DNA from: Austropuccinia psidii
Taxonomy: Eukaryota; Basidiomycota; Pucciniomycetes; Pucciniales; Sphaerophragmiaceae
Reading direction: 5' to 3'
Length of the DNA stretch: 64,000 nucleotides
Assembly (NCBI GenBank): GCA_023105745.1
Contig: JALGQZ010000001.1
Coordinates: 43,362,082-43,426,081, forward strand
Each line of letters starts with the position of its first letter. Position 1 is the stretch's first letter. Shown piece by piece: positions 8,149 to 44,995 of the stretch. The notes below the pieces were generated by a model. That model worked only from the letters and a program-made list of their open reading frames with translations. It had not been told where the DNA came from and did no database searches. The position numbers and the translations under genes were made by a program.

Positions 8149-8165
8149 GTACCCCCCACCTTGAA
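8149..8165 (-). other. Polypurine tract of A-2
   Basis: GTACCCCCCACCTTG on the plus strand is a G-rich purine tract on the element strand, directly against the 3' LTR. The same tract is found at 40120-40137 and 50572-50590. It is the expected plus-strand DNA primer. Confidence 0.8.
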
Positions 8166-23500: not shown

Positions 23501-25328
23501 TTTAAATTGTACATTGATGCATGTGGAGATGGATTATGGGAAGCCCTACATCAAGTCCATCTTATTTATGACAAACCTACAGAGGGACCAGTTTGTTATA
23601 TCTCAAGGCAAATGAAACCAACAGAGGCCAGATATGGTGCAAGCCAAATGGAGTGATTATATTTAGTATTGGCACTTGAGAAATTACACTATTATCTTGA
23701 TGGAAGTGTTTTTGAAGTAATAACTGACTTTAATTCCATGAAATCACTTCTTAACATGAAAACTCCCAACAGACATATGTTGAGATGGAAAATAGCCATT
23801 CAAGAATATAGAGGAAACATGACTATAGTCCACAAAGCAGGAAGCATTCACAGGAATGCTGATGGACTTAGCAGGTGGGCATTAGCCAACACTCCTGATA
23901 ACCCAGCTTATGTACCTTTGGAAGCTGAACCACAAATTCCAATTGAAGGGAATAACATAACTGATATTGGGACTGAATTCTTTGAAGAAGTCAGAGAATC
24001 TTATAAGCAAGACAAGAATTTCCATATCTTGACTTCTTTGTTAGATAAAGACTGCAAAGATGAATCTTTAGTCAATGCACTAGATGAAGTTTGGAAAAAT
24101 TCCTACTCTGAAGGAAGATTTCACTTGTTTGATGGGATTATTTACCACAGAACCAAACATTCTTGTGTAATGACATTATTCAGCAGATTTCTTATCAATA
24201 CCGTTCTAAATGAATGCCATGATATCATCTACTCTGGACACCTGTCAGAGGACAGAACACTTGAAAAAGTGAAGAACTGTGCATGGTGGCCATCTTGGAG
24301 AAAATAGACCATTGAATACTGCCATACCTGTGACAGATGTCAGAAAGCAAACAGGATTACAGGCAAGAAATTTTGACTTATGATCCATATTCAAGAACCA
24401 AAATCCCCTTGGGAAGTTGTTCACATGGATTGGGTCACAGCACTTCTTCCAAGTGGTGACAAAAGTTATAATGCTTGCTTAGTCATTGTAGACAGATATA
24501 GCAAAACTCCCATCTTCTTACCATGTCATAAAGATGACACAGCTATGGATACAGCTGTTCTTATATGGAGTATAGTTATCTCTCATACAGGATTATTTAA
24601 GAATATCATAAGTGACAGAGATCCCAAGTTCACATCTGAACTTTGGACCAATCTTCATAGATTGTTTGGGACTAAGTTATCATTCTCTAAAGCATACCAT
24701 CCTCAGACAGATGGATTAGCAGAGAGAATGACTCAAACTTTAGAAGAAATGATCAGGAGATTTTGTGCTTATGGGTTAGAATTTAAAGACTCAGATGGCT
24801 TTTCCCATGACCGGTGCACTCTTATACCTGCATTAGAATTGGCATATAAGACATCAGTCCATTCTTCCACAGGACAAACTCCTGCTATCTTAGAAAAAGG
24901 ATGAAATCCAAGACTCCCAGCAGACACACTGAGGAAAGACTTGATTGACATTCACCCTACAGCTTCCAGCTTCAAGATAATGCTTGATAAAGTGAAACAT
25001 CATGCAAACCAAAGCATGGATGATGCTTTTGATTATGCAAAACAGAAGTTGGACAAGAGTCATAAAGTACCAGACTTCAAAGTAGGGGACTTAGTTCTAG
25101 TTTCAACCTTTAATTTTAATAATATCAAAGCCCCAAAGATACTTAAAGATTCTTATGTAGGACCTTTTGTTATTGTTGCCTTACATGAAACCAATGCAGT
25201 TCAAGTGGAATTGTGTGGTGAATTGGAAAATAAACACCCCACTTTTCCAGTCAGCTTGATAAAGCCTTATCAACCAGCTGAGAAAGAATTTTTTCCTTTG
25301 AGGAACCCAACTCCTTTAACTGTCCCAC
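20257..25328 (+). pseudogene. Family C gag-pol polyprotein, broken; ends in nested B
   Basis: Order along the strand: N-terminal gag-pol frame 20257-21084 (coiled-coil-like), capsid 21047-21535 after a frameshift (EFI, WWKSELINKWANN), zinc knuckle CHKCVSTSHLANTC (CX2CX4HX4C) near 21666, and protease with DTG near 22030. RT is 22673-23420 with several stops, keeping YIDDIITCS. RNase H is 23470-23880. Integrase has H2C2 ([18 protein letters not shown]) and the D,D35E core (MDW, SDRDPKF, LAERM). The frame reaches TPLTVP at 25323, where B inserted, and resumes at 44996. At least eight stops or frameshifts. No ATG starts the gag-pol frame here; the first codon is TTG. Confidence 0.92.
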
Positions 25329-26766
25329 TGTCAGGCTGAGTCTATATTGAAGTGGTAACAAGAGTATTTACAACTAGAATTATGACTGTGACACGTAGAA
25401 AATTAATTTAAAATAAGAGTATTGGGTTTTAAAAGATGATTTATAATATAATTAAGGGGTTCTACTATTGAATAATAGTGGTGGTGAGCACTATTGAGAA
25501 CCCGGGGTGCAATCTTACCAGTTGGGTTAAAATAATAAGAGTTACAATGATTAAATATATAATTATACCTGTTTATTACCCAAGAGTAAAACTGTTTTTG
25601 ACAGTTTACTACGTAGGGTATTCAAGAGCAGGATGAGGAGACAATTCTGGCTGTGAAAAGCCTCCTTTTTATCCTGAAATGGGGTGGAAAGGGTGCTAGA
25701 CCTTTCCACGTAGAGGAAGTGAAGATTTTTCACTCTCTAGGACTTACTTGTGGTTTGCAAACAGCCTGTATGCCCTGTATTGGGCTCAGATGTGGTTTTG
25801 AAACCACATCTGGGCGGATTTCACCAATACAGGGTGAAAATTTTGATCTGGGGACCTCACAGCCTGATTCTGACGTGTATGACGCGTAGAATGCTGTACA
25901 GAAACTGTATGGGACCCCAGTATTGACTCAAAAATGAGGTATTGAAGTAAAAACATGCCTCTTCATCTATTTGAAACCTCATATTCATGATTATGGGATA
26001 TTATTCCATGGTAAGGCTGTATATGACAGCAGGTGGGATTTTAACCTTAAAGCAGCTATAACTTTGTCAATTCTTGAGATATCAACCTCAAAATTGGTTC
26101 AGTGTGTAGCCCTGTATGTGCTCCACACAATGGGACCTCATTTGGTATGGGTATCATTAAATATGGCAAAGGTATCCCATGTACAAGATTTTTGTACATT
26201 TGTGTGTTTTAGGCAAAAAGCTGTATTGAGCTTGTTTGCCCCATAACTTCTGCAGTAGTTGAGATATGAGGAAGTGGATGACACCATCAGATAGCCCGGA
26301 TTGTGCTCTTTCCAAAAAGACCCCGCTTCAGGTATCCCACGCTAAAACTGTAGAAGTTAGATGAGAGGTGAATGTTTTGTTCACCCTTATTTGGCGTGAA
26401 ATTGACCATAACTCCAGTAATATTGGTGCTAGCTCAGTTTGGCTGGTACCATTGGATAGCCCTGGCTTAAAGCTTAATTTTGAGTACCCATTTGATGGGG
26501 TTAAGCCTCTCCTTCTAGATTTTAGATGAGAGGTGAAAATTAAGGTTTATGCTCAGCAATAACTTTGAGCAGGAATAACTTTGTTATTTCTTGTCCTATG
26601 GTGATGGGACTTATATTTTCAGAAAGAGGTAAGTTTCCTCTTTCTTCTGATACCTTTTTAGCTGATTTGGCTCAGCTCCATGTTTTGGTGGTATCTTGGC
26701 TATACCATTGGTTTATGGTATTTTGGCTGTCATGCTTGTGCTCTGGTTTTGAGTCACAGGCTGACA
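25329..26766 (-). repeat. 3' LTR of B
   Basis: 1438 bp, TGTCAGGCTGAG...CACAGGCTGACA on the plus strand. A frame of 78 codons at 25653-25889 recurs in the other LTR, but only because LTRs are copies. The two LTRs differ by scattered point changes and no net indel. Confidence 0.95.
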
Positions 26767-26780
26767 TACCCTCCCTCTAA
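26767..26780 (-). other. Polypurine tract of B
   Basis: Minus strand AGAGGGAGGGTA abuts the LTR start TGTCAGCC. It lies only about ten bases after the gag-pol stop codon, so B has almost no 3' UTR. Confidence 0.8.
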
Positions 26781-26790
26781 AAAAGGCTCA

Positions 26791-29700
26791 TCATTGATGA
26801 GACTGTTCAGTCCTCCTAGAGGCTCTGAATCTCCTTAAATGAAGTTTCCCATCTGGTATGGCATCTTCTGCCAACCATTTGTCTTTATCTGCTGTCTGGT
26901 TCTTGAATCTGACTAGGTATTGTCTTTGATCCTTCCCATTGAGTCTGATCTTCCTGGCCCTGATGATCTTACTCACAGGTCCAGGGGAGTCTTCCACTTC
27001 CACTATCTCTTGTGGTGTGGGGTTCTTTCTTCTGGAGGGGAATTTATCCTCTTCTGTCTGGAAGTATGGTTTGACCAAACTCACTGGAAAGACTGGATGT
27101 TTCCTTGAAAGCTCCTCAGTGAGTTTGATGTCCACTGCATTTTTCCCTATCAACTTAATGATAGTAAAAGGTCCTACAAATGAGTCCCTCATCTTTTTAG
27201 GTCCTTTGAGATTGTTGAAGTTCAGTGTAGAAACCAACACCTGGTCCCCTTCTTTGAAGTCAGGTTCCATATGTGATTTGTCCCACCTCTGCTTATTGTA
27301 TTCTTTTGCCTCAGCTATGCATTTGTAAGCTGTATCGCAGGCCCTCTTCCACATATCATGGAAGTCTTTGGCTGTGGGATGGATGGTCAGAAGGTTTTTC
27401 TTCAAGTGATCCACAGGCAACAGGGGATTCCACCCTTTCTCTACCAAGGCAGGTGTTTTTCCTGTGGTGGAGTGCTGACTTGTGTTATAAGCCAGTTGGG
27501 CAGCTGGTAAGAGGGTAACCCAATCATGGGTGTATCCCTCATGGTCCTTGTACTCCATGCCATAGGCACAGAATCTTCTGAGGATGTCCTCCATTGTTTG
27601 TATCATCCTTTCAGCTAGGCCATCTGTTTGTGGATGGTAAGCTGTGGAAAAAGCAAGTTTGGTACCAAGCATGTCATATAAGTTAGTCCAAAATTCAGAT
27701 GTGAATTTTGGGTCCCTATCACTAATGATGATCTTAGGGACTCCACAGGTAGATATGATGTTATTCCAAAACAACACAGCAGTATCCATGGCTGTGTCTT
27801 CTTTATGGCATGGTAGACACCTCATGCTTTTGCCGAACCTATCAACTATGATCAAACAGGCATTATAGTTTTCTTTGCCCCCTGGGACAAGTCCTGTTAC
27901 CCAGTCCATGTTGATGGTTTCCCATGGGTGTTTGGGTTCTTCTATGTGTTTAAGTAACCCATACTTCTTCCCATGTTTCCTATTTGCCTTTTGGCATCTT
28001 TCACAAGTGTTGATGTATTCACTCAACTCTTGTTCCCACTTGGGCCACCAAGCTGTGCTTGCTACCCTCTCTTTGGTCCTGTCCTCACTCATGTGTCCCA
28101 TATAGGGGCAGTCATGGCATTCTTGTAGGATCAATGAGATGTGGTCTCTGTCTACCACTGTGAGTGCACTTGTGTGCTTTTCTCTGTGGTGGAACAGGCC
28201 ATCTATAAGAAAAAACTTATTGTCCTCATAGGCCCTCAAGCAAGGTTCTTCCAGCTGGGTTTCCAGTTCTGGACTCCTGTACTTTTGTTGAAGGAGTTGG
28301 AGTAGTATGCTACACTGTTTGTGTTTGGCATAAGACTTCTGTACTGCACTGAAGAATTCCATGTGCAGTTCTGAGGAACTTATTCCCAGTATGGGAGTTT
28401 CTGTCCCTTCTGAGTCAGTGTCTCCACTGTCAAGGGTACCACTTTCTGGTGCCCATTCAGATATTCTGAAGTTCTTCCTCCTATCTATTTCCATGAAATG
28501 GATAGGGATTTTTGCTGCAACTTCTGGGTCATAAGCTGGATTGCTTTTGACATTGTCCAGTGGCCATCTGCTGAGGCCATCTGCATTGGTATGGCTTTTA
28601 CCTTCCTTGTATATGATGGTCATGTTCCCTCTATACTCCTGGATGGCTATTTGCCATCTCAGCATATGTCTATTTGTAGTCTTCATGTTTAGTAAAGACT
28701 TCAAGGCTGTGCAGTCTATGTAGACTTCAAAGACTGCACCCTCCAAATAATAATGGAGTTTTTCTAGAGCCCAGACTAGACATAGACATTCAGTCTGGGT
28801 GGCCCCATACCTGGCTTCTAAATCTTTCAGCTGCCTTGAGATGTAGCAAATTACTCCTTCTCTTGGTTCACCATCCACAATTTGTCTTTGGTGAAGGGCT
28901 GCTCCTAGGCCTTGACTGCATTCTGCATCTATATATAACTTGAATGGTAGTTCAAAGTCAGGTAAGATGAGCACAGGTGGATTAGTGAGTTCATATTTGA
29001 TCCTCTCATATGAATCCCTCCTTTCCTTGGTTATTTCAAAAACTACATCTTTTGAACATAACTTGTATAAACTACTAGTTATGTGTGCAAAATGTTTGAT
29101 ATGGTTTCTATAGTAGCTAACAAACGCAAGGAAAGATTGCATCTCTTTGATGTTCTTTGGTACTGGTTTCTGCAGTACTGCTGCTACTTTATTCTTGTCA
29201 ATTGCCAGACTAAGACCTGAGACTTTATGTCCTAGAGCCAGTAACTCTTGTTGGCCAAAATTGCACTTTTTAAGTGAAGTTTTCAGATTTATGGGTGTGC
29301 ATTTACTTAGCACTCTGTCTATGTATTGCACATGGTCTTCCCATGTCTCTGAGTGTATAATGATATCATCAATATATACTACCATCCAGCCTTCCAATAT
29401 TTCATCTTGAAATATTGTGTCCATCATCCTTTGGAAGTGGGCTGGTGCATTCTTGATGCCAAATGGCATTCTGGTGTACTCATATATGCCCATATGGCAT
29501 ATTATTCTGAGTAATTTCATGGAATTTGGTTTAACTCCATTTTGGTGGAAGCCTTTCATACAATCCATCTTGGTTATGTATTTGGCTTTGGCCAGCTTAT
29601 CCAAGGCGTGAGGTATCCTTGGTATAGGGTACCTGTCTGCTTTTGTGTAGTTATTCAGGGCTCTGAAGTCCCCACACAGTCTAGACTTGCCATCATTCCA

Positions 29701-31858
29701 GGTGATGAGGACAGGAGTGGTGATTTCCACTATTTCATTATGTCCAATCTTTCTGACAACATCCATGTCCAGGAGTTCATTGATATGTTTCTCAATTTCC
29801 TTCCTGGTTTCCAGGCTTGCTGGATAAGGAGGTCTCCTCAGCATAGGTGGATAAGGCCTTTCCACATCCAGATATAGTTCTATATCATGGCCTTTGATCT
29901 TGCCTAATGGTTCTTCTCCAATGGCAAATGCTGGTCTATTCTTTCTCAGCATCTTCAGTAAACTTAGTTTTTGTTTACTGGTGAGGGTAGTGCTAAATTG
30001 TCCCTCTCTGAATTCCTTCAGAAGTTCTTCTAGTGGATCTTGAGAAGATATCTGGTATATGTCAAGTGAAAATTTCTTTTCCTTGTTAGTACCAATGGTG
30101 ATGTGCCTATTTTTACTGTTGTAAATGTCTATGCCATACATCCTCTGGTAATCTGTTCCCAGTAAAAATCCTTGGATGTGGGCATCATTAAGCACTACAA
30201 ACTCTGGGTTGAGTCTGATATTACCTTTCCTGTGGGGTATAATTATCTCTTTGATAATTGTCCCAATGGAAGGCATCTTCCCTGATGCACTTTTAAATTT
30301 CTTTGCCTTAGTGGGCAAGAGCTGTTTTTCCCAATTGGGGAAGTGGGTATCCAGATAATTTCTGGCTACTCTGGAGCAGTGTGCTCCACTATCAATGATC
30401 AGTGGGTGCTGGGCATTGTCAATACAAACAGTCATTTTTGTCGCTGTCCCATGTATATATGCCATTCCTTTGGTTGGTGTAACCAGGAATGTTTGTGCAT
30501 CTTGTGTGTGTTTGCACAAGTTCTTGGTAGCAGTGTCTTGTGGCATTCCTGCTTCCAACTGTATGTCCTGGATTTCCAGTGGGGTTTCCTCTTGGTATTC
30601 CACTAGAAATTCCTCTCTTGGGTCTTGCTCATCCTCAGATGGTTCTCTGATGGCATCACCCATGGAGTCTGATTCAGAATCCTCTGTTGGAGGTTCTTCC
30701 TCAGGGACTTTCTCTATGGCATAGACTTTTTTCTTTGCCTTTGGACAGTTGTTGGCATAGTGGTCTGTTGAACCACAATTGTGACAAGAATTCTTCTTCT
30801 TAGCCACTTCTGCCACTCTTTCTCTGGGTTTGTCTTTAATCTCTACCCTGAGTGGTTGTTTCTCTTTGAAACTGCTGCTTCTATATGGGGTGAATTTCCC
30901 TATATTAGTCCTCTTCCTTATGTCTTGTAAGGTGTTGGCTATGACATCTAGAGTGCAATTTTGGTTGCATCTGCATTTTACTGCATGCTCTAGTTCTCCT
31001 GGCAGTTGTGTCAGAAGTTTGTGATTCCTCATTTGGATGTTCATCTGAGGATCAATGGCTTTAAGTCTTTTAGACTGTCTGAGACACCAATCATATGGAT
31101 CTTTGTCCACAGAGTATTTGTCATTCTCAAATGACATGGTCTTTTGCCATATCCAAGTTCCATTACTGTACTTTTGGATGATTTGACTCTTCCACCATGG
31201 CCAGTTTCTTCTGCCATGGATTTCTTTCATTTCTGTGTACCATATGCTTGCATGACCTTTAAATGCAGTATTCAATCTAGCAGTGATCCAGTAGTCTGGT
31301 ATGCTTGGTACATCAATGAAGAGTCCATCAATATAATCTATGAGTTCCATATGATCATATTCTCCTGATCCAGAGAATTTGGGCCAGCTTGAGGCCTCAG
31401 GAAGCTGTTTCAAGGCTTCCTTCTCTGAATAAGACATGCCATCTCCATCCTGGTATTGTGATGGAGGTCTTGCCTTATTCAACAACATGGCATCTGGTTT
31501 GATGTCATCTGGTTGATATGGATTCTCCATAGCTTGGCCTTGTGGTTGGGGCTTCAAGCTATGGTAGGCATTAAACAACTTGTTAATTTCTTGATCCAGA
31601 CACTCCCTGTCCCTTGTGCTGTGGTGTTGTTCTTCAAAGACTATATTCAGTCTTTTGTTGGTTTCTTCAGAGGCTTTGCTCAGTTGAGCATATCCTTCTT
31701 GAAGATTCTTAACTATTTGTTCCAAGGAGGCTTGAGTTTGTCTCATCCTCTGTTGGCTAGCTTTAATTTCTGCAAACTTCTTTGCAGATTGTTCATCATA
31801 TTGGGACATTTGTAACCACAGTGTATCACTGTTGATGTTACTCTCAGATGTGACAATG
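26791..31858 (-). CDS. Family B gag-pol polyprotein (3' part, split by A)
   Basis: An open frame of at least 1672 residues counted from an internal ATG at 31809. It has an N-terminal coiled coil (1-85), gag capsid about 140-300, and a CCHC knuckle C342/C345/H350/C355. Protease is IIDSGA with D473. RT has YIDD at 812-815. RNase H carboxylates are D961, E1007, D1032 and D1077. Integrase has H1232/H1239/C1269/C1272 and D1302, D1364, E1400, exact D,D35E spacing. A chromodomain-like end at about 1610-1660 has YLVRFKN and DKWLAE. No frameshift or stop. Codons continue upstream of 31809 to the A insertion and, across it, in frame into 41842-42629. It copies and inserts the element; A has severed it from its promoter and 5' end. 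Confidence 0.93.
31854..31858. other. Target-site duplication of A (left)
   Basis: CAATG, repeated at 41837-41841 on the other side of the A element. Confidence 0.95.
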
Positions 31859-33094
31859 TGTCACAACCACGTATTTTGACCCTCCTCCTTGATGGCGGGG
31901 GCAACCCAACCTGGAGCCAAGTTGGGGCCAATTGGCCATGTCATATCATTTATGGCCAATTGACCCCTTTTGGGTGTTCCATGGCTCTTATGCCATAACC
32001 CATTCCATTGGCCACTTATGGCCCCCATCATCCTTTATGGCCTCAGGCCATATCCTGCGTCATTGGCCCTCTTGGCCAATTTCCACCTCACCAACCCCCA
32101 GGCCTCCATCACTGTTTTTGGGCCTGGGGGGTCCCTTTGTCTTCCAGGGGCTTCCAGGCCCCATGGCCACCTTCATTGGTTTCCTGGCCACCCCTTTCAT
32201 TATGGGGGTTTTGGCCTAAATGGCCTTTTTGGGCCATTTAGGCCCCCCACGGCTTCTACGGTCCGCGGTCCGTAGGCGGATTAGGCCCCTTTTGGCCTAA
32301 TCCAATGAGGCAAAAAGGGGCCAAAGGGGGCAGCCACCTAGCCCCCAAGGCCAGGTGGGTCCCAAACCACAATTGGGCCCACCTGAGCCATTTTTGGCCA
32401 CCAATCCCTTGGACCCATTTTGGCCATAAATCCCGTAGGACCCACTTTTGGTCCTGGACCACCATGGACCAACTTCACCTTCATGGCCTCTGGCAACCAC
32501 CAGAGGCCACCAAATCATCTCAACAAGCATTTCCCTCAACTTAAGGGGAATTCTTTCCTTTCCTTCATGCACTCCGTACTCAAGATTGCAGGTGTGGTGC
32601 ATATATGGTATTATATACCATTATGCACCATTTTTACTCAGCAATCCAATGGTGACGTTTTCAGGACCCAATTCCACCTTTCCATTTCAAGGTCCATAAT
32701 TCCAACGCCCATTTCGAAGGAGGACTTTTCAGCTTATCAGTCTGGCAATCCATGGCGGCAATTCAGAAGATCATTCAAGGATCCCAACCACCTGTATCTG
32801 CAGGAGGTGGGTTGGTACAATTCATTCAGGATTATTCTAAGGTCAATTCTCAAGAGGTATTACAAAATTCAATCAGTTGTCAAGACATCAAGTATTCAAT
32901 ACTCCTTGGACAACCCAATTCATCCGTACAGGCCTTATTCAATCAACCTGTATGGCCTTGGCCCAATTGGGCCATTTCTTATTCCACTGTGGGAATTCCA
33001 TCACACAGTTCAAATTTCAAGATGGCCAGAACTGTATTTCCCGATTCGGACAATACAGTCATTGATCCACCTTCCAGGATCAACTTTTCAGCTT

Positions 33095-33111
33095 TTCACA
33101 TATACTGGCCA
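33095..33111 (+). promoter_or_regulatory. Probable TATA box of the A LTR
   Basis: TTTCACATATACTGGCC is kept in LTR copies whose surroundings have diverged (minus strand near 15045-15060, 47975-47990, 49315-49335, 62158-62175). CATATA lies 36-40 bp upstream of 33141, the proposed first base of the RNA. Position and conservation fit a core promoter; the start site itself is inferred. Confidence 0.6.
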
Positions 33112-33140
33112 CCTTTTCAGCACCTGGGGACTTTTTCCCC

Positions 33141-33154
33141 AGTTAATTAATATA
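33141..33154 (+). promoter_or_regulatory. Proposed R start / self-primer of A-1
   Basis: AGTTAATTAATATA follows a GGGGACTTTTTCCCC inverted repeat. It is the perfect reverse complement of 33529-33542, just past the LTR. In Tf1/sushi-type elements the first bases of the RNA fold back on the PBS and prime reverse transcription. The block is exact in the solo LTRs at 48905 and 61747. Confidence 0.6.
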
Positions 33155-33528
33155 GTGGATTTATTTTTATCCTTATTTTCTTTTACCTTATTAAAGTTAA
33201 TACTGATAATCTTAAGTCAGTCATTCAGCACCCTTTTCTTTTATTTCCTCGCCTGTCCAGTGGATATTGGTGGTCATATCCTTATACTAATTCCATTTCC
33301 CTTTCTGGCAGGTTGAAACAGTGAATTGAGGATTCACTTGGTTGGCTTCTTTATTATCTTTGGCCATTGGCTTCATCTTTTCTTATCTCATCTTTTGGCA
33401 TACTTGTTTTCCCCTTTATTCTTTCTTAAAGAAATTCATTCTTATTATTCTTTTATCTCTGGAGCCCTCCAAGTGAGTTCTTGATTCCTGAGTGCCAGGC
33501 CCTCTTCTTCCAAGAGCCCCTGTGACAT

Positions 33529-33542
33529 TATATTAATTAACT
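33529..33542 (+). other. Primer binding block of A-1 (self-complementary type)
   Basis: TATATTAATTAACT begins one base after the LTR end. It lacks the TGG expected of a tRNA-CCA primed site, unlike B, C and D. It is complementary over all 14 bases to 33141-33154. TTAATTAA is itself palindromic, so six of the fourteen pairs carry the extra information. Confidence 0.6.
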
Positions 33543-34282
33543 CATAATTCTTCTTCATTCATTCATTCTTTTATTCTTATATTTAAATTCATTCATTCAT
33601 TTCATCAAAATTATGATTCTTTGACGTTTTATGATCTTATGATTCTTCATCACCTCTCAATTTTCCCTCATTCATTCTTCATTCTGAAAATTGAAAGCTG
33701 ACCCATTTTTTAATTTCTGTTATCTTCTCAATCTCATTCTCAATCTTAATCAATCTATTTTTATCCATAATTCAGGCATTTTTATCTTTGGTTCTCAAGT
33801 TATTCATCAGGTTATTCAGACACGTTCTTCATATCAGGATTCACTTTGATTTATTCCTCAAGATTGTTTGATTTTTTGGAAGAATTCACTTGAAAATTGA
33901 TTTGATTGACTAATTTGACATAATTGAAATTGACCTCAAGATAATTGATTGACCTGAAGACTTTATTGATTTTGCTGATTATTCACATCAAGATTATTGA
34001 CATAAATTGATTTTGACTCGAGAATTCATTTTGATTGATTGATTTTTTCTGCAAGATTTTGATTTGATTTGATTTTGATTGTTTGATTGATTGTTTTTAT
34101 TGACTTCAAGATTCTCATTGATATTGATTTTTACTTCAAGACTCATTTGATTTGATTGATTGACGTATTTGGAGAATTTTGATTCATTGATTATCCAATT
34201 TCCTCAAGATTTGATTGTTGATTTTGTACTTCAAGAAAATTTTGATTTTATTTCATTTATTTGGTTGATTATTCCTGAAATC
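33543..34282 (+). other. A-1 leader, low complexity
   Basis: About 740 bp of TTGATT/TCAAGA-rich low-complexity sequence before gag, with a direct counterpart in A-2. The gag frame is open back to a TTG at 34160, but those 41 codons are AT-rich leader, so I place the start at 34283. No other gene seen. Confidence 0.7.
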
Positions 34283-35620
34283 ATGCCAGTTCAACATTCA
34301 CCTCCAGCAAGACAGACTAGATCTCAGGCCAGAGCTCAAGCTGTTCTGACTCCAACTCCAAGGGCTCCTCTTGATGGTACCCCAGCAGTTTCTCAACTGA
34401 GGGCCAGATTGGACAGAGGACCCATTATGGAAGGAGCAGCACCATCCAGGAAGGAAGGAAGAGGGCCAAGAAGGTCAATGTCTTTATCAGGAGTGGTTGG
34501 CGGATTCCCAGGATTTTCAAGAACCAGTCCCAAGGTTCAAGGTGAAGATGGTGAAGAGGAGGAGGAGAATTCTGTGGAAGAGGAAGAGTCTAATGGCACT
34601 GAGGCTGCTCCTGCTCCTGTGGGAGCATCTGAGGGCACCAGAGGACCAACTCTAGCCCAGTCTGATCAGCCTGCCTCTCATCAGCCTGAACCGTCTTTAT
34701 TGGCCATTATGCAACAAATGACTCAGATTATGGCCAATCTGCAAGCAGCTTCTTCTTCTGAATTATCAAGACCACCAGCCTTCAAGACTCCCTCTATGAA
34801 GGCTCCAGAATGCTTTGATGGGACTCAGCCCTTCAAAGTCAGAAGCTTTATTCAGTCTTGCCAACTCATCTTTCATAATGACCCGGCAAACTTCTCTCAA
34901 GACAGAAAGAAGGTTCTTTATGCCACTTCATTCTTAGTTGGCAGGGCTGCAAAATGGATTGAGCCTTATCTTTCCAACCTCAATAATCAAGACTCAAATT
35001 ATCTCCTCAATTCCTGGTCATTATTCGAATCCCAATTGTTCACTTTATTTGGAGACCCAAATGAAGTTAGAAAAGCAGAAGCTGAATTGGATGGCCTTAG
35101 GATGAAAGAAGGTGGGCATGTTGCTTTGTATATTGCCGATTTCAGGAGTTTGGTTTCAAGAATTGGGGATTGGGGTGAAAGGGCTCTTATTCATCATTTC
35201 AGGAAGGGTTTGGCCTCCAGGATTCTGGATCAATTGGCCTCCCATCCTTCAAACATTGATTCTCTTCAAGACTTAATGGACGTCAGCCTGGAACTTGATA
35301 CCAGGTACCATGAGAGGCAGAAGGAAAAGAATCATCATCAAGAGAAGAAGCCTGAAGCCTCAAAGTCTCACTCTTCTCATCATCAAGTTTCTTCAAGTTC
35401 AAGACCAAAGAAGAAATTTCATTCTCAAAAGCGGGACAAGCCCCATTCTTCATTGTTGAATAAGGACTTCAAGTTGAAAGGTTCTGAAAAGGAAAGAAGA
35501 ATCAAGGAGGGGTTGTGTACCTATTGTGGTGGGAAGCATAGTCTTGAGTCCTGTGTCAAAAGGCCTCAAAACAAGCTTACCCAACCGTCAGGCAGTTTTC
35601 CCAGCCAGGGAAAAGCCTGA
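34283..35620 (+). CDS. Gag of A-1
   Basis: 445 residues from ATG 34283 ([20 protein letters not shown]). Forms the virus-like particle. Order: basic, proline-rich N-terminus; a very acidic stretch (GEEEEEN, VEEEES); a capsid domain starting near [13 protein letters not shown] and including [20 protein letters not shown]; a Ser/His/Lys-rich linker; and a zinc knuckle [13 protein letters not shown] near the end (35516-35554). The knuckle is CX2CX3HX4C, one residue shorter than the usual CX2CX4HX4C, and A-2 has the same spacing. The frame ends QGKA-stop with the frameshift signal immediately at the stop. Pol overlaps the last 70 bases in the -1 register. Confidence 0.93.
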
Positions 35621-38600
35621 GTGAAGACCATGTTGTGTTCAATGGTCTTCACAGTTTTCCTTCCAGGGCACAATTGTGCATTCTGAATACTGGTGTCAAG
35701 AATTCTCTTAAATTTTTTGTTTTCTCTTCTCTTTCTGATGTTTTTTACAGTATTCTCATTGATTCTGGTGCTACACACTCATTCATTGCAAAGCAGTTTG
35801 TTCACAAGTACTCACTGACTACGTCAGAACTTCCAGAGAAGATTCCTCTTATCATTTTGGACTCCTCTGAGTCCCCTTCCTTATTTGTGACTCACCATAC
35901 TAAATATATGGTTGAGCTCCCTTCCTTCCCAAGCTTTGAATGGGATTTTTTAGTCATTGATACTCCCAAGGGAGAAGACCTCATATTGGGCTTTGACTTT
36001 CTCAATCATTTTAATCCTTCTATTGATTGGAGGCAAGGGCTGATCACCTTTAATACTGATCAAAAGGACTATTCTGATCCTTCCAATTCCTTCCGTAATG
36101 ACTCTTCCTCTGCCAAATCATGTGCAGCTCTGGTTGGTGATTCTAGAACACCATCAGTTCCATCTTCTGTCCATATTCCTTCCCTTAATTCCCATCTGTC
36201 ATTACCATCATCTGGAGATGAAGTCTTCAAAGAGATTCAAGATGTTGGGGAAGATAATTCTGTATCTTCACTTCATCTCTTCTTTGGGAATATGGACCTT
36301 CCTCCTTCATCTTATCATGACTCCCTGGAGGAGTTGTGGGATGAAGAGGAAGAGCCAGAAGAAGTAGAAACTGTGATGAAGGTTGTTCCCTCTGTTTATC
36401 ACCAATACTTGGATGTATTCTCCAAGGTGAAAGCAGAGAAACTTCCTCCTCACCGTGCCTGTGATCATCATATCAAACTGGAGGGGTCTCTACCTCCAGT
36501 TGGGGTGATCTACTCTTTATCCAAACAAGAGTCAGATACACTCAGGGCCTACATTTCAGAGAATGTAGAGAAAGGTTTCATCCGGCCAAGCTCCTCCTCA
36601 ACAGGAGCACCTGTCCTCTTTGTTAAAAAGAAAGATGGTGGCCTCCGTTTGTGTGTTGATTACCGCAAACTCAATGCTGTCACTAGGAAGAACAAATATC
36701 CTGTTCCTCCTATGAACCAGCTTCTTAATGTCTTTAATGGTTCTTCTATCTTCTCCAAGATTGATTTGCGTGGTGCATATAACCTGCTTAGAATCAAGGA
36801 GGGTGATGAACATTTGACATGCTTCAGAACTAAATATGGCAGTTTTGAGTACTTGGTTATGCCATTTGGGCTCACCAATGCTCCTGCCTCTTTTCAGAAT
36901 CTTGTCAATGATATATTCCAAGATCTTCTTGATGTTTTTGTTGTGGTTTATTTGGATGACATTATGGTCTTTTCCAAATCTGAGGAAGAACATGTCACCC
37001 ATGTGTCCACTGTTCTTTCCAGACTCAGAGCCAATAACCTTTTTGCCAAGGCTTCTAAATGCCTTTTTCATGTTTCTAGTGTAGAATATCTTGGTTATGT
37101 TGTTTCTTCTGAAGGCCTCAAGATGGACCAAGCAAAAGTCCAGCAGATCCTTAATTGGCCTCCTCCAAGAAACCTCAAGGCTCTTCAATCCTTCCTTGGC
37201 TTTGCCAACTTCTACCGCCGTTTCATCAAGAATTATTCAAAGAAAATCAGTTCACTCACCAGTTTCCTCAAGAAAGATTCCTGTTTCCCCCTCAATGAGG
37301 AAGCTCTTAGCCAGTTTCATCAACTCAAAGAGGCCTTCACTACCGCTCCAATCCTTTCCCACTTCAATCCTTCTCTACCGACCATTGTAGAGACCGATGC
37401 ATCCGATTATGCTTTGGGTGCTGTACTGAGTCAGGTCTCTGACTCAGGAAAACATCCCATTGCCTTTGACAGCCGCAAGCTTATTCCAGCAGAACTCAAC
37501 TATGAAATTCATGACAAGGAACTCCTTGGTATAGTCTGGGCTCTCAAGCGCTGGAGGGCTTTTCTTCTTTCTCTGTCCTCTCCTTTTGAAGTTCTCACCG
37601 ATCATTCTTCTCTTCAGTACTTTATGTCATCAAAGATCCTTACTCGCCGTCAAGCCCGTTGGGCCGAATTCTTATCTGAATTTCATTTTTCAATCACTTA
37701 CCGCCCTGGCCGCCTAGCAACTCTTCCAGATGCCTTATCACGTCGGGACGACGTCTATCCGGAGAGGGGGGAGGATTTCATCAGCAAGAATCCAATGAAT
37801 TTTCAACAACTCATTAAGCAAGATGAAGTTCAACCCTCAAAGTTTTTTGCAGTCAAGGTGGATTCTTTTTCAAATTTGATTGATTCAATTCAGAAGAAAT
37901 TATGGCAAGATCCTCAGTACAGAAGTATTCTTCAAGATTTGGGTAAAGGTAAATCTGTCCAAGATTATTCTCTTGATTCCTCCTCCCAACTCCTTCTCTT
38001 CAAAGATCGGGTGGTAGTCCCAAATGACTCCACAATTCAACTCAGCATTCTTCAAAAGCGTCATGACTCTCCTCTAGCTGGACACCCTGGCCAAGAGAAG
38101 ACTCTCAAACTTGTCAAGCGGGATTTCCACTGGTCCGGCATGACCCAATTCATTAAGGATTATGTATCATCCTGTCAACAGTGTTCAAGAAACAAGAATA
38201 TCCACCATAAGAAGTTTGGACTCCTCAAACCTCTTTCAATTCCAAATGGTCCTTGGATTTGTCTCTCAATGGATTTCATCACTCAACTGCCCCTGTCCAA
38301 TTCTTTTGACTCAATTCTTGTCATAGTGGACAGATTCTCAAAAATGGCGGTTTTTATTCCAACAATGTCTTCAATAACTTCTTTGGATTTGGCCCATTTA
38401 TTCATCAAGAATATCTTCTCAAAGCATGGCCTCCCATCAAGCATTGTCAGTGATAGAGGTTCACTTTTTGTTTCTTCCTTCTGGACCAATCTTTGTCAGC
38501 AGCTCAAGATTTCAAGAGACTTGTCAACTGCTTACCATCCAGAAACTGATGGACAGACAGAGAGGGTAAATCAGATACTAGAACAGTATCTTCGGATGTA

Positions 38601-39336
38601 CGTCAGTTATCATCAAGATGATTGGAACACCTGGCTCCCTCTGGCTGAATTTGCCTACAATAATTCTGATCACTCTTCAACCAAGCAATCACCGTTTTTC
38701 ACTGTTTATGGAAGAGATCCACAATTTGATTCAGTTCACATCACTCAAGATACTCCTGCTGGAAAGTTATCAACAAAAATCCAATCAGTACAGCAAGATG
38801 TCAAGAGAGAACTTGAAATCGCCATAAACCGGTTTAAGAGGTATGCAGATAAAAGTAGAGCAAGTCCACCTGTTTTCAATCCTGGTGACATGGTATGGCT
38901 TTCTTCCAAGAATATCAAATCAACTAGACCCACCAAGAAACTGTCTGAAAGATGGTTGGGTCCCTTTCCAATCTTGAAGAAAGTCAGTACTCATGCTTAC
39001 CACCTCAAGCTTCCATCTCAATGGAAATCCATCCACCCAGTCTTCCATATCTCACTCTTGGAACCAGTCAAGACATCAACAATCCCAAATCGGCATCAAG
39101 AGCCTCCTCCTCCAATCATTATTGAAGAAGAAGAGGAATGGGAAGTCTCTCAAGTACTGGATTCAAAGCTCAAGAGAAGAAAATTATGGTATCTGGTGGA
39201 ATGGAAAGGTTTCAGTCAAGATTCAGAAAGATCCACTTGGGAACCAGCTGAAAACCTCAAGAATTGTCCTGAACTTGTCAAAGATTTTCATTCGTTATAT
39301 CCTGACAAGCCAGGACCCAATTCTTCAATGGCTTGA
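35548..39336 (+). CDS. Pol of A-1 (PR, RT, RNase H, integrase, chromodomain)
   Basis: Open frame without a credible start codon, so expected as a Gag-Pol fusion by -1 frameshifting at 35608-35614. Numbering from 35635: protease LIDSGATHS with D43; RT about 295-500 with YLDD at 439-442; RNase H D588, E629, D656, D699; integrase zinc site H810/H817/C847/C850; catalytic D880, D940, E976 with exact 35-residue spacing; GPF module [12 protein letters not shown] at 1103-1114; chromodomain about 1165-1222 ([27 protein letters not shown]). The putative aromatic cage W1169, W1190 and F1193 is present, so binding to methylated H3K9 is plausible. All catalytic residues are retained. The protein should copy the RNA and direct integration to silent chromatin. 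Confidence 0.95.
35608..35652 (+). promoter_or_regulatory. -1 programmed frameshift signal between gag and pol
   Basis: Slippery heptamer G GGA AAA at 35608-35614, in the X XXY YYZ register of the gag frame. A 6-nt spacer GCCTGA contains the gag stop. A stem follows: GTGAAGACCAT (35621-35631) pairs perfectly with ATGGTCTTCAC (35642-35652) around a 10-nt loop. The pol frame is exactly -1 relative to gag and is open back to 35548. All canonical parts of a -1 frameshift site are present. Efficiency is unknown. Confidence 0.85.
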
Positions 39337-39340
39337 ATTT

Positions 39341-39457
39341 TTATGGTGCTTGGTGGGGAGAGGAATTACCAAAAGTAAGTCCCACTCCTGGTATGCACCT
39401 TTAGGGGTATTCTACTCTTCTTTGTTGTAAGCATCACCTTGGCCACTCTGTGAGCAC
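39341..39457 (+). repeat. 3' UTR module, copy 1
   Basis: Contains CAAAAGTAAGTCCCACTCC, then TGGTATGCAC, and ends CACCTTGGCCACTCTGTGAG. Paired with copy 2 about 270 bp downstream. Confidence 0.8.
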
Positions 39458-39612
39458 TTTTCAATTTGGACACAGACCTTTTGGCCCGGCTTTCAACATC
39501 CGAATTCCAAATTTATGGCCATTCACACTTGGGCAAATGGACCATTCCTTTTTTACTCTCCTTCCCAAGACTTTATTCTTTCAACACATTCATTTATCAA
39601 GAGTTTTCTTAT

Positions 39613-39724
39613 TTATGGCACTGGCGGGAGGGGCAACTACTAAAAGTAAGTTCCTCTCCTGGTGTGCACTTCCCTGAGGGGTCTACAATCTGTCAAAACA
39701 TCACCTTGGCCACTCTGTGAGCAC
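39613..39724 (+). repeat. 3' UTR module, copy 2
   Basis: Contains TAAAAGTAAGTTCCTCTCC, then TGGTGTGCAC, and ends CACCTTGGCCACTCTGTGAG. About three quarters of positions match copy 1 by eye. Confidence 0.8.
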
Positions 39725-40119
39725 CTGGCATCAAATTCTTTTATTCAGGTCCTTGGTCACTTTCAAAATCAATTGTCGTAATCCGTGATGAAGATTGGAT
39801 TCCTCCTCAAATTTCATTTTCTTTATTTTTTCTGTTCCTCTCTTTATATCTGTTTCCTTTTCTCTTTTACTCTTTATATTCTCTCAAAATTTCTTTTCTT
39901 ATAACTCTTTAACGCCAAAATCTTTACGTCAAATCATGTCTTCAACTTTGTCAAAGCCAAATGTCAAGAGAAGATCAAGTCAACCTCAATTCATATGCCA
40001 ACAAGCTTATCAGTCCAATTCTTCTTTTCAAGATTCAATACCTCTGGAATCCTTACGTCAAACCCGTCTCATTAGCCTCAACAGGCCTCTACCTTATCTT
40101 GGTGCTCAGGAGCTCACCA

Positions 40120-40137
40120 TTCAAGGTAGGGGGGTAC
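40120..40137 (+). other. Polypurine tract of A-1
   Basis: CAAGGTAGGGGGGTAC ends directly against the 3' LTR. Same position and sequence type in A-2 and A-3. Confidence 0.85.
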
Positions 40138-41836
40138 TGTCACAACCACGTATTTTGACCCTCCTCCTTGATGGCGGGGGCAACCCAACCTGGAGCCAAG
40201 TTGGGGCCAATTGGCCATGTCATATCATTTATGGCCAATTGACCCCTTTTGGGTGTTCCATGGCTCTTATGCCATAACCCATTCCATTGGCCACTTATGG
40301 CCCCCATCATCCTTTATGGCCTCAGGCCATATCCTGCGTCATTGGCCCTCTTGGCCAATTTCCACCTCACCAACCCCCAGGCCTCCATCACTGTTTTTGG
40401 GCCTGGGGGGTCCCTTTGTCTTCCAGGGGCTTCCAGGCCCCATGGCCACCCCTTTCATTATGGGGGTTTTGGCCTGAATGGCCTTTTTTGGGCCATTTAG
40501 GCCCCCCACGGCTTCTACGGTCCGCGGTCCGTACGGTCCGTAAGCTGCGGTCCGTAGGCGGATTAGGCCCCTTTTGGCCTAATCCAATGAGGCAAAAAGG
40601 GGCCAAAGGGGGCAGCCACCTAGCCCCCAAGGCCAGGTGGGTCCCAAACCACAATTGGGCCCACCTGAGCCATTTTTGGCCACCAATCCCTTGGACCCAA
40701 ATTGGACCAAAAACACCTTGGACCCATTTTGGCCATAAATCCCGTAGGACCCACTTTTGGTCCTGGACCACCATGGACCAACTTCACCGTCATGGCCTCT
40801 GGCAACCACCAGAGGCCACCAAATCATCTCAACAAGCATTTCCCTCAACTTAAGGGGAATTCTTTCCTTTCCTTCATGCACTCCGTACTCAAGATTGCAG
40901 GTGTGGTGCATATATGGTATTATATACCATTATGCACCATTTTTACTCAGCAATCCAATGGTGACGTTTTCAGGACCCAATTCCACCTTTCCATTTCAAG
41001 GTCCATAATTCCAACGCCCATTTCGAAGGAGGACTTTTCAGCTTATCAGTCTGGCAATCCATGGCGGCAATTCAGAAGATCATTCAAGGATCCCAACCAC
41101 CTGTATCTGCAGGAGGTGGGTTGGTACAATTCATTCAGGATTATTCTAAGGTCAATTCTCAAGAGGTATTACAAAATTCAATCAGTTGTCAAGACATCAA
41201 GTATTCAATACTCCTTGGACAACCCAATTCATCCGTACAGGCCTTATTCAATCAACCTGTATGGCCTTGGCCCAATTGGGCCATTTCTTATTCCACTGTG
41301 GGAATTCCATCACACAGTTCAAATTTCAAGATGGCCAGAACTGTATTTCCCGATTCGGACAATACAGTCATTGATCCACCTTCCAGGATCAACTTTTCAG
41401 CTTTTCACATATACTGGCCACCTTTTCAGCACCTGGGGACTTTTTCCCCAGTTAATTAATATAGTGGATTTATTTTTATCCTTATTTTCTTTTACCTTAT
41501 TAAAGTTAATACTGATAATCTTAAGTCAGTCATTCAGCACCCTTTTCTTTTATTTCCTCGCCTGTCCAGTGGATATTGGTGGTCATATCCTTATACTAAT
41601 TCCATTTCCCTTTCTGGCAGGTTGAAACAGTGAATTGAGGATTCACTTGGTTGGCTTCTTTATTATCTTTGGCCATTGGCTTCATCTTTTCTTATCTCAT
41701 CTTTTGGCATACTTGTTTTCCCCTTTATTCTTTCTTAAAGAAATTCATTCTTATTATTCTTTTATCTCTGGAGCCCTCCAAGTGAGTTCTTGATTCCTGA
41801 GTGCCAGGCCCCCTTCTTCCAAGAGCCCCTGTGACA
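40138..41836 (+). repeat. 3' LTR of A-1
   Basis: 1699 bp. Differs from the 5' LTR by one missing 21-bp segment, extra 23-bp and 27-bp segments, one extra T and only a few substitutions that I could find. All three larger indels lie in short-repeat sequence in U3. Confidence 0.95.
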
Positions 41837-41841
41837 CAATG
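41837..41841. other. Target-site duplication of A (right)
   Basis: CAATG, matching 31854-31858. Confidence 0.95.
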
Positions 41842-42629
41842 TTATTTTCAGTCTGAGTGGGGGTAATGTTTCTATTACTAGGACTACTGATTCTAGAGTG
41901 GTTTACAACTACTTCTGGTTCTTGTGTACTTCTTTCACCAAATCTAACAGCTTCTGGATCATGGGGTCTGACTCTTTCCTCCTCTGGTTGAAGGAGGCTT
42001 TGTTCTTGCCCTTGTTTCCTTGTCTTCTCCTGGAAACTTCCTGGAATTGTGAAGAATGGTGACTCTTGGCCACTGATCTGCTGGTTTCTGAATGGTGTGA
42101 AGCTACTGGAGAGCTGATTTGGCCTGCTCCTTGTGAACCTGAAGGAATCTGAGTAGGCCCTGTCTGGATTAGTTGTTCTTCTATTGCTTGGATAGTGGCT
42201 TGATTCTCCCTTATCCTCTGTGCCCTTGCCTCCAGGAGTCTGTGCTGCCTGGTAGGATTCCAACCTTTGGTGATTACCATAAGGTCTTTGAGGTCTATCT
42301 CTTTGAGACAGATCTTCTGGCAACTTGATCCCAGTTCTGCCCAGTGAGTTTCTAGGTTGAACCTCTTGTTGTCCATGCTCCATTGAAATAAATCTTTGAG
42401 GAGTTGGTGGATCTGAAGAACTTGATCCATATCTTTCCAGTCCTCTGGTTTGAGGTTTCTGTTGAATTGGAGTGTGAATGGCAAGGTTGATATTATCTCC
42501 CTCATTGTTTTGCCATCCACTGCTGTGTCCAAGGTGTCTTCTTTCAGGTCTTCTGGTTCTGGACAATTCTTCTCTGTCCTCTGGCTGGTTCCTTTGGAAG
42601 CCAAGGTCTCTGAGGTATGCAGGGGACAT
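41842..42629 (-). CDS. 5' part of family B gag-pol frame, split off by A
   Basis: Open from ATG 42629 (MSPAYLRDLGFQRNQPEDRE) to the A junction. Removing A and one CAATG copy joins it in frame to 31858-26791: 788 plus 5068 bases is exactly 1952 codons including the stop, with no stop at the seam. The region is Pro/Ser/Arg/Gln-rich and polar, with no domain I know. From 42609 to 41909 the same DNA also encodes gag1 in the +1 register relative to this frame. The ATG sits inside the gag1 intron, so only unspliced RNA would carry it. Whether this frame is translated as a protein or is merely open is not settled by the sequence. Confidence 0.7.
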
Positions 42630-42927
42630 ATCAGTGCTTGCAAGAAGTCAAAAACTTTATGTTCTTAGGGTATTTACCTTTGACTGTGCCTTGTACAAAT
42701 TTATTGTCTGCTGACTTGGGCAGTTTGCCTTTGGAAGTTACAACTGGGTTAATAATTGTAATCTTTCCTTTACAAGTGGTTAAGGTTGGTTTACCTTGTA
42801 TTGAAGCAGAGTTTCGTGGTTTTCTACTCCTCTGAGTGGCTATGGGTGTCCACTTTTTGGCTGTAATGAGACCTTCACTGTGCCTCTTTCCTTTGCCCTT
42901 TCTGCCCTCTGGTTCTGAGGGTGTCAT
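41909..42927 (-). CDS. Family B gag1, spliced (two exons)
   Basis: Exon 1 42927-42678 (MTPSEPEGRKGKGKRHSEG; ends GTVK plus one base) and exon 2 42609-41909 (starts by completing E, then TLASKGTSQRTEK; ends LVKEVHKNQK-stop), giving 316 residues. The intron 42677-42610 is 68 bp, GTAAAT...CTCAG, with a CACTGAT branch-point candidate. Contains a lysine-rich N-terminus, a structured-looking middle (EDWKDMDQVLQIHQLLKDL, CQKICLKEIDLKDLMV) and a basic tail (RRRQGNKGKNK). Probably an accessory or alternative Gag. No known domain recognised. The start at 42927 is the first in-frame ATG; the frame is open about 100 bases further up. Confidence 0.72.
42610..42677 (-). other. Intron of family B gag1, containing the gag-pol start
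   Basis: 68 bp, donor GTAAAT, acceptor CCTCAG. Unspliced, the exon-1 frame stops at TGA 42633-42631 and the gag-pol ATG follows one base later (TGATATG). Spliced, the ATG is removed and exon 1 is fused to gag1. Confidence 0.7.
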
Positions 42928-43539
42928 TGGTGTGTTGGCCTGTGACTGTGTCTCAAGTGGGATGTAATTTTCTTCCACTGAATCAAGGCAGGAAAAAGAG
43001 GGCTTATACCAGTTAAGACTTCTCAAGAATGCTGGTTTTGCACGTCTAGGATTGGCCTCTGGGCTTGTATGTTACTACAATATGCCCTGTATAATGACAG
43101 TGTAATTGAATCAACAATTCCACGTCAGAATTACAGCTTTTGGTACCCTGTCACACTGTTTGTGTGCCAGTATCCCACAGATACACTTGTGGTTTTCAAG
43201 TGTAATCTGAATAAGTGGCTCTGTATAAGTGTAATTGAGTTAACAATACACTTAACCACGCCTCAACTGATGGTTTTTCAGTCAGAGGTGTCCTTATTCA
43301 ATCAAGAATACAGGACTTATTGATGGCTCAAGTGTTTTATATGTAAACACGCCAAAAATAAAGGTTCCAGTGGGTGTTAACCATGTGGTAAGTACTCTTA
43401 TAATATGAGTAATAAAGTAAAATATATAAAAAAATATATATTTTAAAATAAAATACGCCTAAAAAAATATAAAACAATTGTCAGAAAATAGAAAATAAGA
43501 GAAAAAACTTACTTATAAGGTCCAAAAAAGTTTTAAAAC
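42928..43539 (-). other. B leader region
   Basis: About 610 bp between the PBS and the gag1 ATG. The part nearest gag1 is open in the gag1 frame back to about 43026 without an ATG. Nothing further supported. Confidence 0.5.
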
Positions 43540-43557
43540 ATGGCCAGGCCCCCAAAA
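43540..43557 (-). other. Primer binding site of B
   Basis: Minus strand TTTTGGGGGCCTGGCCATG begins at the LTR end. The TGGGGGCC core suggests a tRNA 3' end ...GGCCCCCA, possibly tRNA-Pro. Confidence 0.7.
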
Positions 43558-44995
43558 TGTCAGGCTGAGTCTATATTAAGGTAGTAATAAGAGTATTTAC
43601 AACTAGAATTATGACTGTGACACGTAGAAAATTAATTTAAAATAAGAGTATTGGGTTTTAAAAGATGATTTATAATATAATTAAGGGGTTCTACTATTGA
43701 ATAATAGTGGTGGTGAGCACTATTGAGAACCCAGGGTGCAATCTTACCAGTTGGGTTACTATAATAAGAGTTACAATAATTAAATATATAATTATACCTG
43801 TTTATTACCCAAGAGTAAAACTGATTTTGACAGTTTACTATGTAGGGTATTCAAGAGCAGGATGAGGAGACAATTCTGGCTGTGAAAAGCCTCCTTTTTA
43901 TCCTGAAATGGGGTGGAAAGGGTGCTAGACCTTTCCACGTAGAGGAAGTGAAGATTTTTCACTCTCTAGGACTGACTTGTGGCTTGAAAACAGCCTGTAT
44001 GCCCTGTATTGGGCTCAGATGTGGTTTTGAAACCACATCTGGGTGGTTTTCACCCATACAGGGTGAAAATTTTCATCTGGGGACCTCACAGCCTGATTCT
44101 GACGTGTATGACGCGTAGAATGCTGTACAGAAACTGTATGGGACCCCAGTATTGACTGACATATGAGGTAGTGAAGTAAAAACATGCTTCTTCGTCTATT
44201 TGACACCTCATATTCATGATTATGGGATATTATCCCATGGTAAAGCTGTATATGACAGCAGGTGGGATTTTAACCTTAAAACAGCTATAACTTTGTCAAT
44301 TCTTGAGATATCAACCTCAAAATTGGTTCAGTGTGTATCCCTGGATGTGCTCTACACAATAGTACCTCATTTGGTATGGGTATCATTAAATATGGCAAAG
44401 TTATCCCATGTACAAGAGTTTTGTACATTTGCGTGTTTTAGGCAAAAAACTGTATTGAGCTTGTTTGCCCCATAACTTCTGCAGTAGTTGAGATATGAGG
44501 AAGTGGATAAAACCATCAGATAGCCCTGATTTTTCTCTTTCAAAAAAGACCCCACTTCAGGTATCCCACGCTAAAACTGTAGAAGTCAGATGAGAGGTGA
44601 ATGTTTTGTTCACCCTTATTTGGCCTGAAATTGACCATAACTCCAGTAATATTGGTGCTAGCTCAGTTTGTCTGGTACCATTGGATAGCCCTGGCTTAGA
44701 GCTTCATTTTGAGTACCCATTTGATGGGGTTAAGCCTCTCCTTCTAGATTTTAGATGAGAGGTGAAAATTAAGGTTTATGCTCAGCAATAACTTTGAGCA
44801 GGAATAACTTTGTTATTTCTTGTCCTATGGTGATGGGACTTATATTTTCAGGAAGAGGTGAGTTTCCTCTTTCTTCTGATACCTTTTAAGCTGATTTGGC
44901 TCAGTTCCATGGTTTGGTGGTATCTTGGCTATACCATTGGTTTATGGTATTTTGGCTGTCATGCTTGTTCTCTGGTTTTGAGTCACAGGCTGACA
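43558..44995 (-). repeat. 5' LTR of B
   Basis: 1438 bp, same length as its partner at 25329-26766. Contains the B promoter. A separates this promoter from most of gag-pol. Confidence 0.95.

Follow-up and report, generated by a model that had tools for sequence, protein, structure and literature searches.

Splicing probably exchanges the start codons of Gag-Pol and a second, overlapping frame in a Ty3/Gypsy retrotransposon of Austropuccinia psidii

Three introns most probably divide the RNA of a Ty3/Gypsy retrotransposon of Austropuccinia psidii, here called element B, into a message for Gag-Pol and a message for a second protein, ORF1, with splicing swapping the start codons of the two. The element lies in a 64,000-nucleotide stretch of A. 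psidii DNA (the window), for which a first-pass annotation had proposed a splicing switch from one RNA to two proteins, centred on a single intron, called intron 3 below. The switch as such is supported, but two further introns had been missed, including the one whose removal creates the start codon of ORF1. In genomic DNA the exons are found joined, with a new ATG created and the Gag-Pol ATG lost, the leader is nearly free of ATGs, and both overlapping frames carry the marks of purifying selection. Translation of either frame as proposed is a more cautious deduction than the splicing itself.

The overall architecture of element B is as follows.

25329–44995, minus strand: element B, a Ty3/Gypsy LTR retrotransposon recognised by its LTR pair, Pfam pol domains and target duplication, and split by element A
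43558–44995, minus strand: 5' LTR of B, TGTCAG...CTGACA, from the LTR pair
25329–26766, minus strand: 3' LTR of B, from the LTR pair
43535–43557, minus strand: presumed primer binding site, the stretch directly 3' of the LTR, assigned by position only
41836–42629, minus strand: predicted Gag-Pol frame, N-terminal part, interrupted by element A at about 41836, where homology to other copies ends
26791–31809, minus strand: Gag-Pol frame past element A, 1672 aa when counted from the first ATG, with a CCHC-like knuckle, reverse transcriptase (RT), RNase H and integrase

The LTRs (1438 bp each, with TG...CA ends) are 96.2% identical to one another, and CCCAC at both flanks of the element forms a 5-bp target duplication. 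Pfam placed RVT_1 (707-863), RT_RNaseH (951-1059), Integrase_H2C2 (1219-1277) and SH3_Tf2-1 (1521-1582) above their cut-offs and rve (1294-1393) under its own (30.7 bits against 32.6), and the order RT, RNase H, integrase is that of Ty3/Gypsy elements. The CCHC-like knuckle also scored under its cut-off (19.9 bits against 20.8), and Pfam named no capsid family in the Gag-Pol frame. A chromodomain, the mark of the chromovirus clade, was not found in B by Pfam (E 0.1), unlike in element A. The Gag-Pol frame is open for up to 1,957-1,958 codons in other copies of B, and a protein search with Gag-Pol as the query gave two matches.

Element A, a Ty3/Gypsy chromovirus (31858-41835, plus strand), is inserted into the Gag-Pol frame of B. 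Its LTRs are ~95.4% identical, ACAAT is present at both flanks, and its gag (486 aa) and pol (1262 aa, including the chromodomain) occupy different open frames which overlap at 35548-35620. A broken pol-like stretch with RNase H, integrase zinc and integrase core domains (Pfam) adjoins B at 23669-24901 on the plus strand, and B may be nested inside another Ty3/Gypsy element, given this adjoining stretch on the opposite strand.

The proposed switch involves the following introns and exons.

42978–43512, minus strand: intron 1 (donor D1 to acceptor A1), 535 bp, A/GTAAGT...TTCAG/TGG, removal of which gives ATGG; junction at 9 places
42795–42977, minus strand: ORF1 exon 1a, 183 nt, which begins with the TG of the splice-made ATG; from junction spacing
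42729–42794, minus strand: intron 2, 66 bp, in frame, GTAAAC...CCAAAG; junction at 13 places
42678–42728, minus strand: ORF1 exon 1b, 51 nt; from junction spacing
42610–42677, minus strand: intron 3, 68 bp, GTAAAT...CTGAT...CAG; spliced and unspliced junctions in the genome
42627–42629, minus strand: predicted Gag-Pol start codon within intron 3; in 90 of 91 copies and the first conserved ATG of the leader
41909–42609, minus strand: ORF1 exon 2, in a different frame from the Gag-Pol sequence that it overlaps; open in the window copy, with signs of purifying selection

Intron 3 had been described as a 68-bp GTAAAT...CCTCAG segment with an internal ATG at 42629-42627, and the minus strand of the window bears this out. 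If it is retained, the exon-1 frame ends at a TGA (42633-42631) and the Gag-Pol ATG follows one T later, giving TGATATG at 42633-42627; if it is spliced out, the Gag-Pol ATG is removed and exon 1 is fused in phase to the frame ending at 41909, both as originally read. The first-pass annotation had made conservation of the donor, the acceptor and TGATATG a check on its proposal, and all three are well kept. Our alignment holds 91 copies (94 loci were fetched, three of which were dropped as the same places fetched twice; two rows are identical), with GT in 88/91, AG in 89/91, ATG in 90/91, TGATATG in 87/91 and a length of 68 in 89/91. A query spanning intron 3 yielded the first 40 copies, whose conservation is biased for that reason. 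The other 51 came from protein queries not spanning it, and among these independently found copies GT is kept in 48/51, AG in 50/51 and ATG in 50/51. Furthermore, four hand-picked stop-free copies of a distant subgroup all retain GTAAAT, CTGATATG and CAG. Of these, three show 82.7-87.3% identity with the window over exon 1 and 70-73% over the leader; for the fourth (L094), the alignment starts only at the end of exon 1.

Junction patterns were then searched in the A. psidii genome (1.015 Gb, 84 contigs). The spliced junction of intron 3 was found at 19 places, nine of them without mismatch, and the unspliced junction at 8,206; a reversed-pattern control gave 0 places, as did a mock deletion of equal length shifted 10 nt from the intron. 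Nineteen exact losses between GT and AG therefore point to a product of splicing, not to chance deletion, and from its exact absence at these places the segment is very likely a spliceosomal intron.

The join of intron 1, predicted beforehand with the ATG as part of the pattern, occurs at nine genomic places (three without mismatch; reversed control, 0). The donor (TATAA/GTAAGT, 43512) is located directly downstream of the LTR and the presumed primer site, and the acceptor (TTCAG/TGG, 42978) is preceded by a pyrimidine tract. Where both sites were readable, the join would spell ATG in 76 of 86 copies and would lack it in ten, the divergent L092 among them. Seven of the nine places are also spliced at intron 3, and in all seven the distance between the two junctions is 233-234 nt, not the 300 nt of the window, a spacing which revealed the 66-bp intron 2. 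Its spliced junction is present at 13 genomic places (control, 0), and its ends are kept in the alignment (GT in 86/91, AG in 90/91). The distance from the intron-1 to the intron-2 junction is 183 nt at all three places where both patterns matched, and that from the intron-2 to the intron-3 junction is 51 nt at all five such places; in four of the seven doubly spliced places, loss of intron 2 is read from length only.

Introns can also be lost singly, since one of the 13 intron-2 places (L045) is without intron 2 only, its leader and intron 3 being present. Altogether there are 29 distinct spliced places, nine with two or three junctions and 20 with one (≤3 mismatches). At the same threshold, the share of places with a single junction is 10/19 for intron 3, 2/9 for intron 1 and 8/13 for intron 2. 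With one junction at 20 of 29 places, it may be that in many cases not all introns are removed, or that the remaining junctions have diverged too far.

Two further candidate introns were rejected. An alternative donor at 43075, paired with A1, gave 0 spliced places and is kept in one subgroup only (35/67); the donor-like A/GTAACA at 43076-43071 is present in one copy subgroup, with AATAAT in its place in the other. A 55-bp leader intron (43512-43458, D1 to 43458) likewise gave 0 spliced places. The acceptor-like TAGG that follows a T run in the leader (43461-43458) is exact in 81/91 copies and is unused in the spliced copies found.

We strongly infer that splicing caused the joined exons, and the spliced places would be spliced RNA copied back into DNA. 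At five of the seven doubly spliced places, the end of the LTR, together with the stretch following it, is in place upstream of the intron-1 junction. We dropped this as a sign of LTR-primed copying, and it does not identify the reverse transcriptase, because the RNA itself carries the LTR end. The ratio of 19 to 8,206 places suggests that new copies are overwhelmingly templated by unspliced RNA, as would follow if spliced RNA were scarce or rarely packaged. Where RNA data are absent, intron-free genomic copies of this kind offer a fossil record of transposon splicing.

For splicing to choose between two start codons, what lies upstream of them matters. In the 57 of 91 copies covering 43880-42630 (≤60 nt short at the far end), the leader has a mean of 2.3 ATGs per copy compared with 16.2 in dinucleotide shuffles (50 per copy). 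The Gag-Pol ATG is present in 66/67 copies and any other upstream ATG in ≤18/67, the commonest of these (18/67) being at 43492, inside intron 1. Because the leader is nearly ATG-free, the Gag-Pol ATG is the first conserved ATG on unspliced RNA, with the transcription start and the extent of the leader assumed, and a scanning ribosome would as a rule meet it first. Exon 1 has an ATG of any kind in 12/88 copies, scattered over eight sites. An ORF1 start at 42927, where the window copy has the exon-1 ATG that opens its frame, was rejected as this ATG is present in just 2/88 copies; the codon at this position is GTG in 27 of the first 28 copies. Across its 722 nt the leader carries 51 indels shared by ≥3 copies. 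Neither the 300 nt of exon 1 nor intron 3 has any; the overlap has a single one, and the Gag-Pol-only region two, both in frame.

With all three introns out, ORF1 of the window copy is 311 codons long, and it overlaps Gag-Pol in a different frame from 42607 to 41909. Between 42927 and 42678, exon 1 has a coding-region signature, given the excess of ORF1 third codon positions among shared variants (28/40, compared with 11/48 single-copy variants; 40 copies, non-CpG). We extended the comparison to non-CpG variants of all 91 copies, setting those shared by ≥4 copies against those in a single copy; all p-values from it are rough, because copies are related and variants not independent. In the ORF1 frame of exon 1, silent to replacing variants stand at 32:7 when shared and 23:138 when single-copy (p 9e-16), and in the Gag-Pol-only region at 60:47 and 56:366. 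Within the overlap, the odds ratio is 3.4 for ORF1-silent versus both-changing variants (p 3e-5) and 2.5 for Gag-Pol-silent versus both-changing variants (p 0.005); the Gag-Pol test had given p 0.14 at 67 copies, and for variants in 2-3 copies neither frame of the overlap gave a significant effect. When ORF1 was recoded with random synonymous codons, the Gag-Pol frame acquired 14.9 stops on average and was stop-free in none of 20,000 draws, compared with 0 stops in the window; the same recoding of Gag-Pol put 4.8 stops on average into the ORF1 frame, with 0.26% of draws stop-free. In the overlap, the third frame has 13 stops, against 13.4 and 17.4 expected. As judged from this variation, there is purifying selection on both overlapping frames, weaker on Gag-Pol.

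A search with the ORF1-frame protein gave 924 matches; every one of the 120 listed is a hypothetical protein of A. psidii MF-1. Among these 120, 35 cross the exon 1-to-2 junction (39 motif matches minus four in which different residues follow). In five gene models exon 2 is spliced to a different upstream donor, and a further one continues straight across the intron, though the MF-1 models may rest on splice-site prediction alone. The listed proteins would be pieces of transposon ORF1 and a sign of transposon genes inflating the gene count. One locus (L056) carries the ORF1/Gag-Pol stretch twice, at 1424-2468 and 2679-3696, in the same orientation.

We propose that the two messages would work as follows. 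Ribosomes would scan the leader and take the first AUG, hence splicing would decide which protein is made. On unspliced RNA, the first conserved AUG, at 42629 in intron 3, would start Gag-Pol. Removal of intron 1 would join A to TG and write an AUG that likely starts ORF1, and fully spliced RNA would have this AUG, the complete ORF1 frame and no Gag-Pol AUG. In this way one leader can have one start codon made and another unmade by splicing. If true, the two start codons are under opposite splicing control, and fully spliced and unspliced RNA each start only one protein at these sites.

The alternative that survives best keeps the two messages and changes the role of the product: spliced RNA would make a surplus structural Gag-like protein, as in copia, BARE1 and EVD, rather than a regulator. 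We consider this unlikely. The logic of spliced versus full-length RNA is the same in those elements as reported (PMC3735527, PMC8892269), and ORF1 is predicted by AlphaFold to be helical, with low confidence (mean pLDDT 54.9 for exon 2 and 68.7 for its core). However, Pfam found no gag family in the 54 ORF1 members scanned, a weak argument as Pfam names no Gag-Pol capsid either. The Pfam matches to ORF1 were weak and scattered, none of them in >7 of the 54 members, and a search for solved-structure relatives returned 0. The CCHC-like knuckle, moreover, is in the Gag-Pol frame, and ORF1 and Gag-Pol are in different frames across the overlap. The name "Gag1", which the first-pass annotation had given to the second-frame product, is therefore not retained, in view of the missing Pfam gag family in ORF1 and the place of the knuckle.

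Less probable again is the stop-restart arrangement that the same annotation had read from TGATATG, in which exon 1 is translated, stops at the TGA and restarts at the ATG one base on. The motif is retained in 87/91 copies, and on RNA that has lost intron 1 but not intron 3 this TGA does terminate the ORF1 frame, a single base ahead of the Gag-Pol ATG, so that restart could act there. This part of the idea stands as a possibility for RNA spliced at 43512-42978. On unspliced RNA it is not needed, because exon 1 has no conserved ATG (12/88 with any, as above) and the leader is nearly ATG-free, leaving little to stop from. The conservation of TGATATG could also be accounted for by splicing, as CTGAT, which contains its TGA, also fits a branch site.

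A little less probable still is a version without a switch, in which the splicing of ORF1 is real and Gag-Pol is made via a later ATG or by internal entry, with the intron ATG unused. A later in-frame ATG is present in the window copy, but the intron ATG is kept in all but one of the 91 copies, is the first conserved ATG and opens a Gag-Pol frame that is stop-free after it, and intron 3 holds just two shared variants against 28 single-copy ones (67 copies). Finally, a rarely spliced cryptic intron beside an accidental second open frame is hardly credible: the mere 19 spliced against 8,206 unspliced places would suit it, but so few are to be expected where spliced RNA is seldom copied, and this reading is contradicted by selection in exon 1 and both overlap frames, the recoding test, the single frame left by removal of three introns in the window copy and the ATG spelled at most intron-1 joins.

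Returning to the splicing switch, which we prefer, the role of ORF1 is proposed with less confidence. Its first exon is basic (19 K+R and 7 D+E per 100 residues, counted with the 66 nt of intron 2 kept), and ORF1 may be a regulator made from spliced RNA, perhaps exporting intron-keeping RNA as CERV does; this reading is reasonable because CERV of the element Cer1 gives a precedent. A programme like that of complex retroviruses is conceivable by analogy, although we hold it to be doubtful: splicing would write the start codon of an early regulator while erasing the Gag-Pol start, and this regulator, like Rev or CERV, would export unspliced RNA for Gag-Pol and for copying. If splicing does switch one RNA between two proteins, host splicing and RNA export would be control points for the spread of the element, and how a burst starts or stops would become testable. 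The published A. psidii genome is reported to be 1 Gb with over 90% transposons, mainly Gypsy (PMC8063080), and the intron boundary of element B occurs at 8,206 places in a gigabase genome.

CERV of Cer1 in C. elegans is the closest precedent that we found. In this Gypsy/Ty3 element, a spliced mRNA is reported to encode CERV, which is needed for export of the unspliced RNA (PMC10309623, PMC3315495). As proposed for B from genomic copies, a spliced multi-exon mRNA of Cer1 specifies a novel protein, partly in another frame (PMC10309623, PMC3315495). The unspliced Cer1 RNA is the source of Gag and Pol and also serves as the genome (PMC10309623, PMC3315495), as we predict for B. The two differ in layout: exons 1-3 and 5 of CERV are described as lying in the polyprotein frame, with an ORF reaching the 3' LTR region (PMC10309623, PMC3315495), whereas ORF1 is wholly 5', overlaps the Gag-Pol start in another frame and would begin at a splice-made ATG, the Gag-Pol ATG being intronic. 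The export function was shown for CERV (PMC10309623) and is proposed for ORF1 by analogy; CERV is described as having no obvious homology outside nematodes (PMC10309623). ORF1 may similarly be likened to HIV-1 Rev, a regulator made from spliced RNA, with unspliced RNA exported as the genome (PMC3315495).

Splicing also divides one transcript into two messages in the Ty1/Copia elements copia (Drosophila), BARE1 (barley) and EVD (Arabidopsis), where it is reported to remove or frameshift pol, leaving Gag as the product (PMC3735527, PMC8892269). In B, unlike these, splicing would remove the gag-pol start, and ORF1 is not recognisable as Gag. In the plant pararetrovirus RTBV, splicing from a leader donor brings a start to another frame for P4, as reported by fusing a leader uORF to a distant ORF (PMC5902531), whereas the AUG in B does not exist before splicing. 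Among fungal Ty3/Gypsy elements, Tyl3 of Yarrowia was examined for introns, and none is reported between gag and pol, as judged by software (PMC5014426). The main text of a paper on rust transposons (PMC12210899) has no mention of "intron", "splic", "gag" or "open reading frame", and we recognised no fungal LTR element with a spliced accessory gene among the titles and abstract beginnings listed for the open-access literature. Splicing into two messages is already known from copia, BARE1, EVD and Cer1; what would be new here is the proposed fungal Ty3/Gypsy design with splice-made and splice-erased starts.
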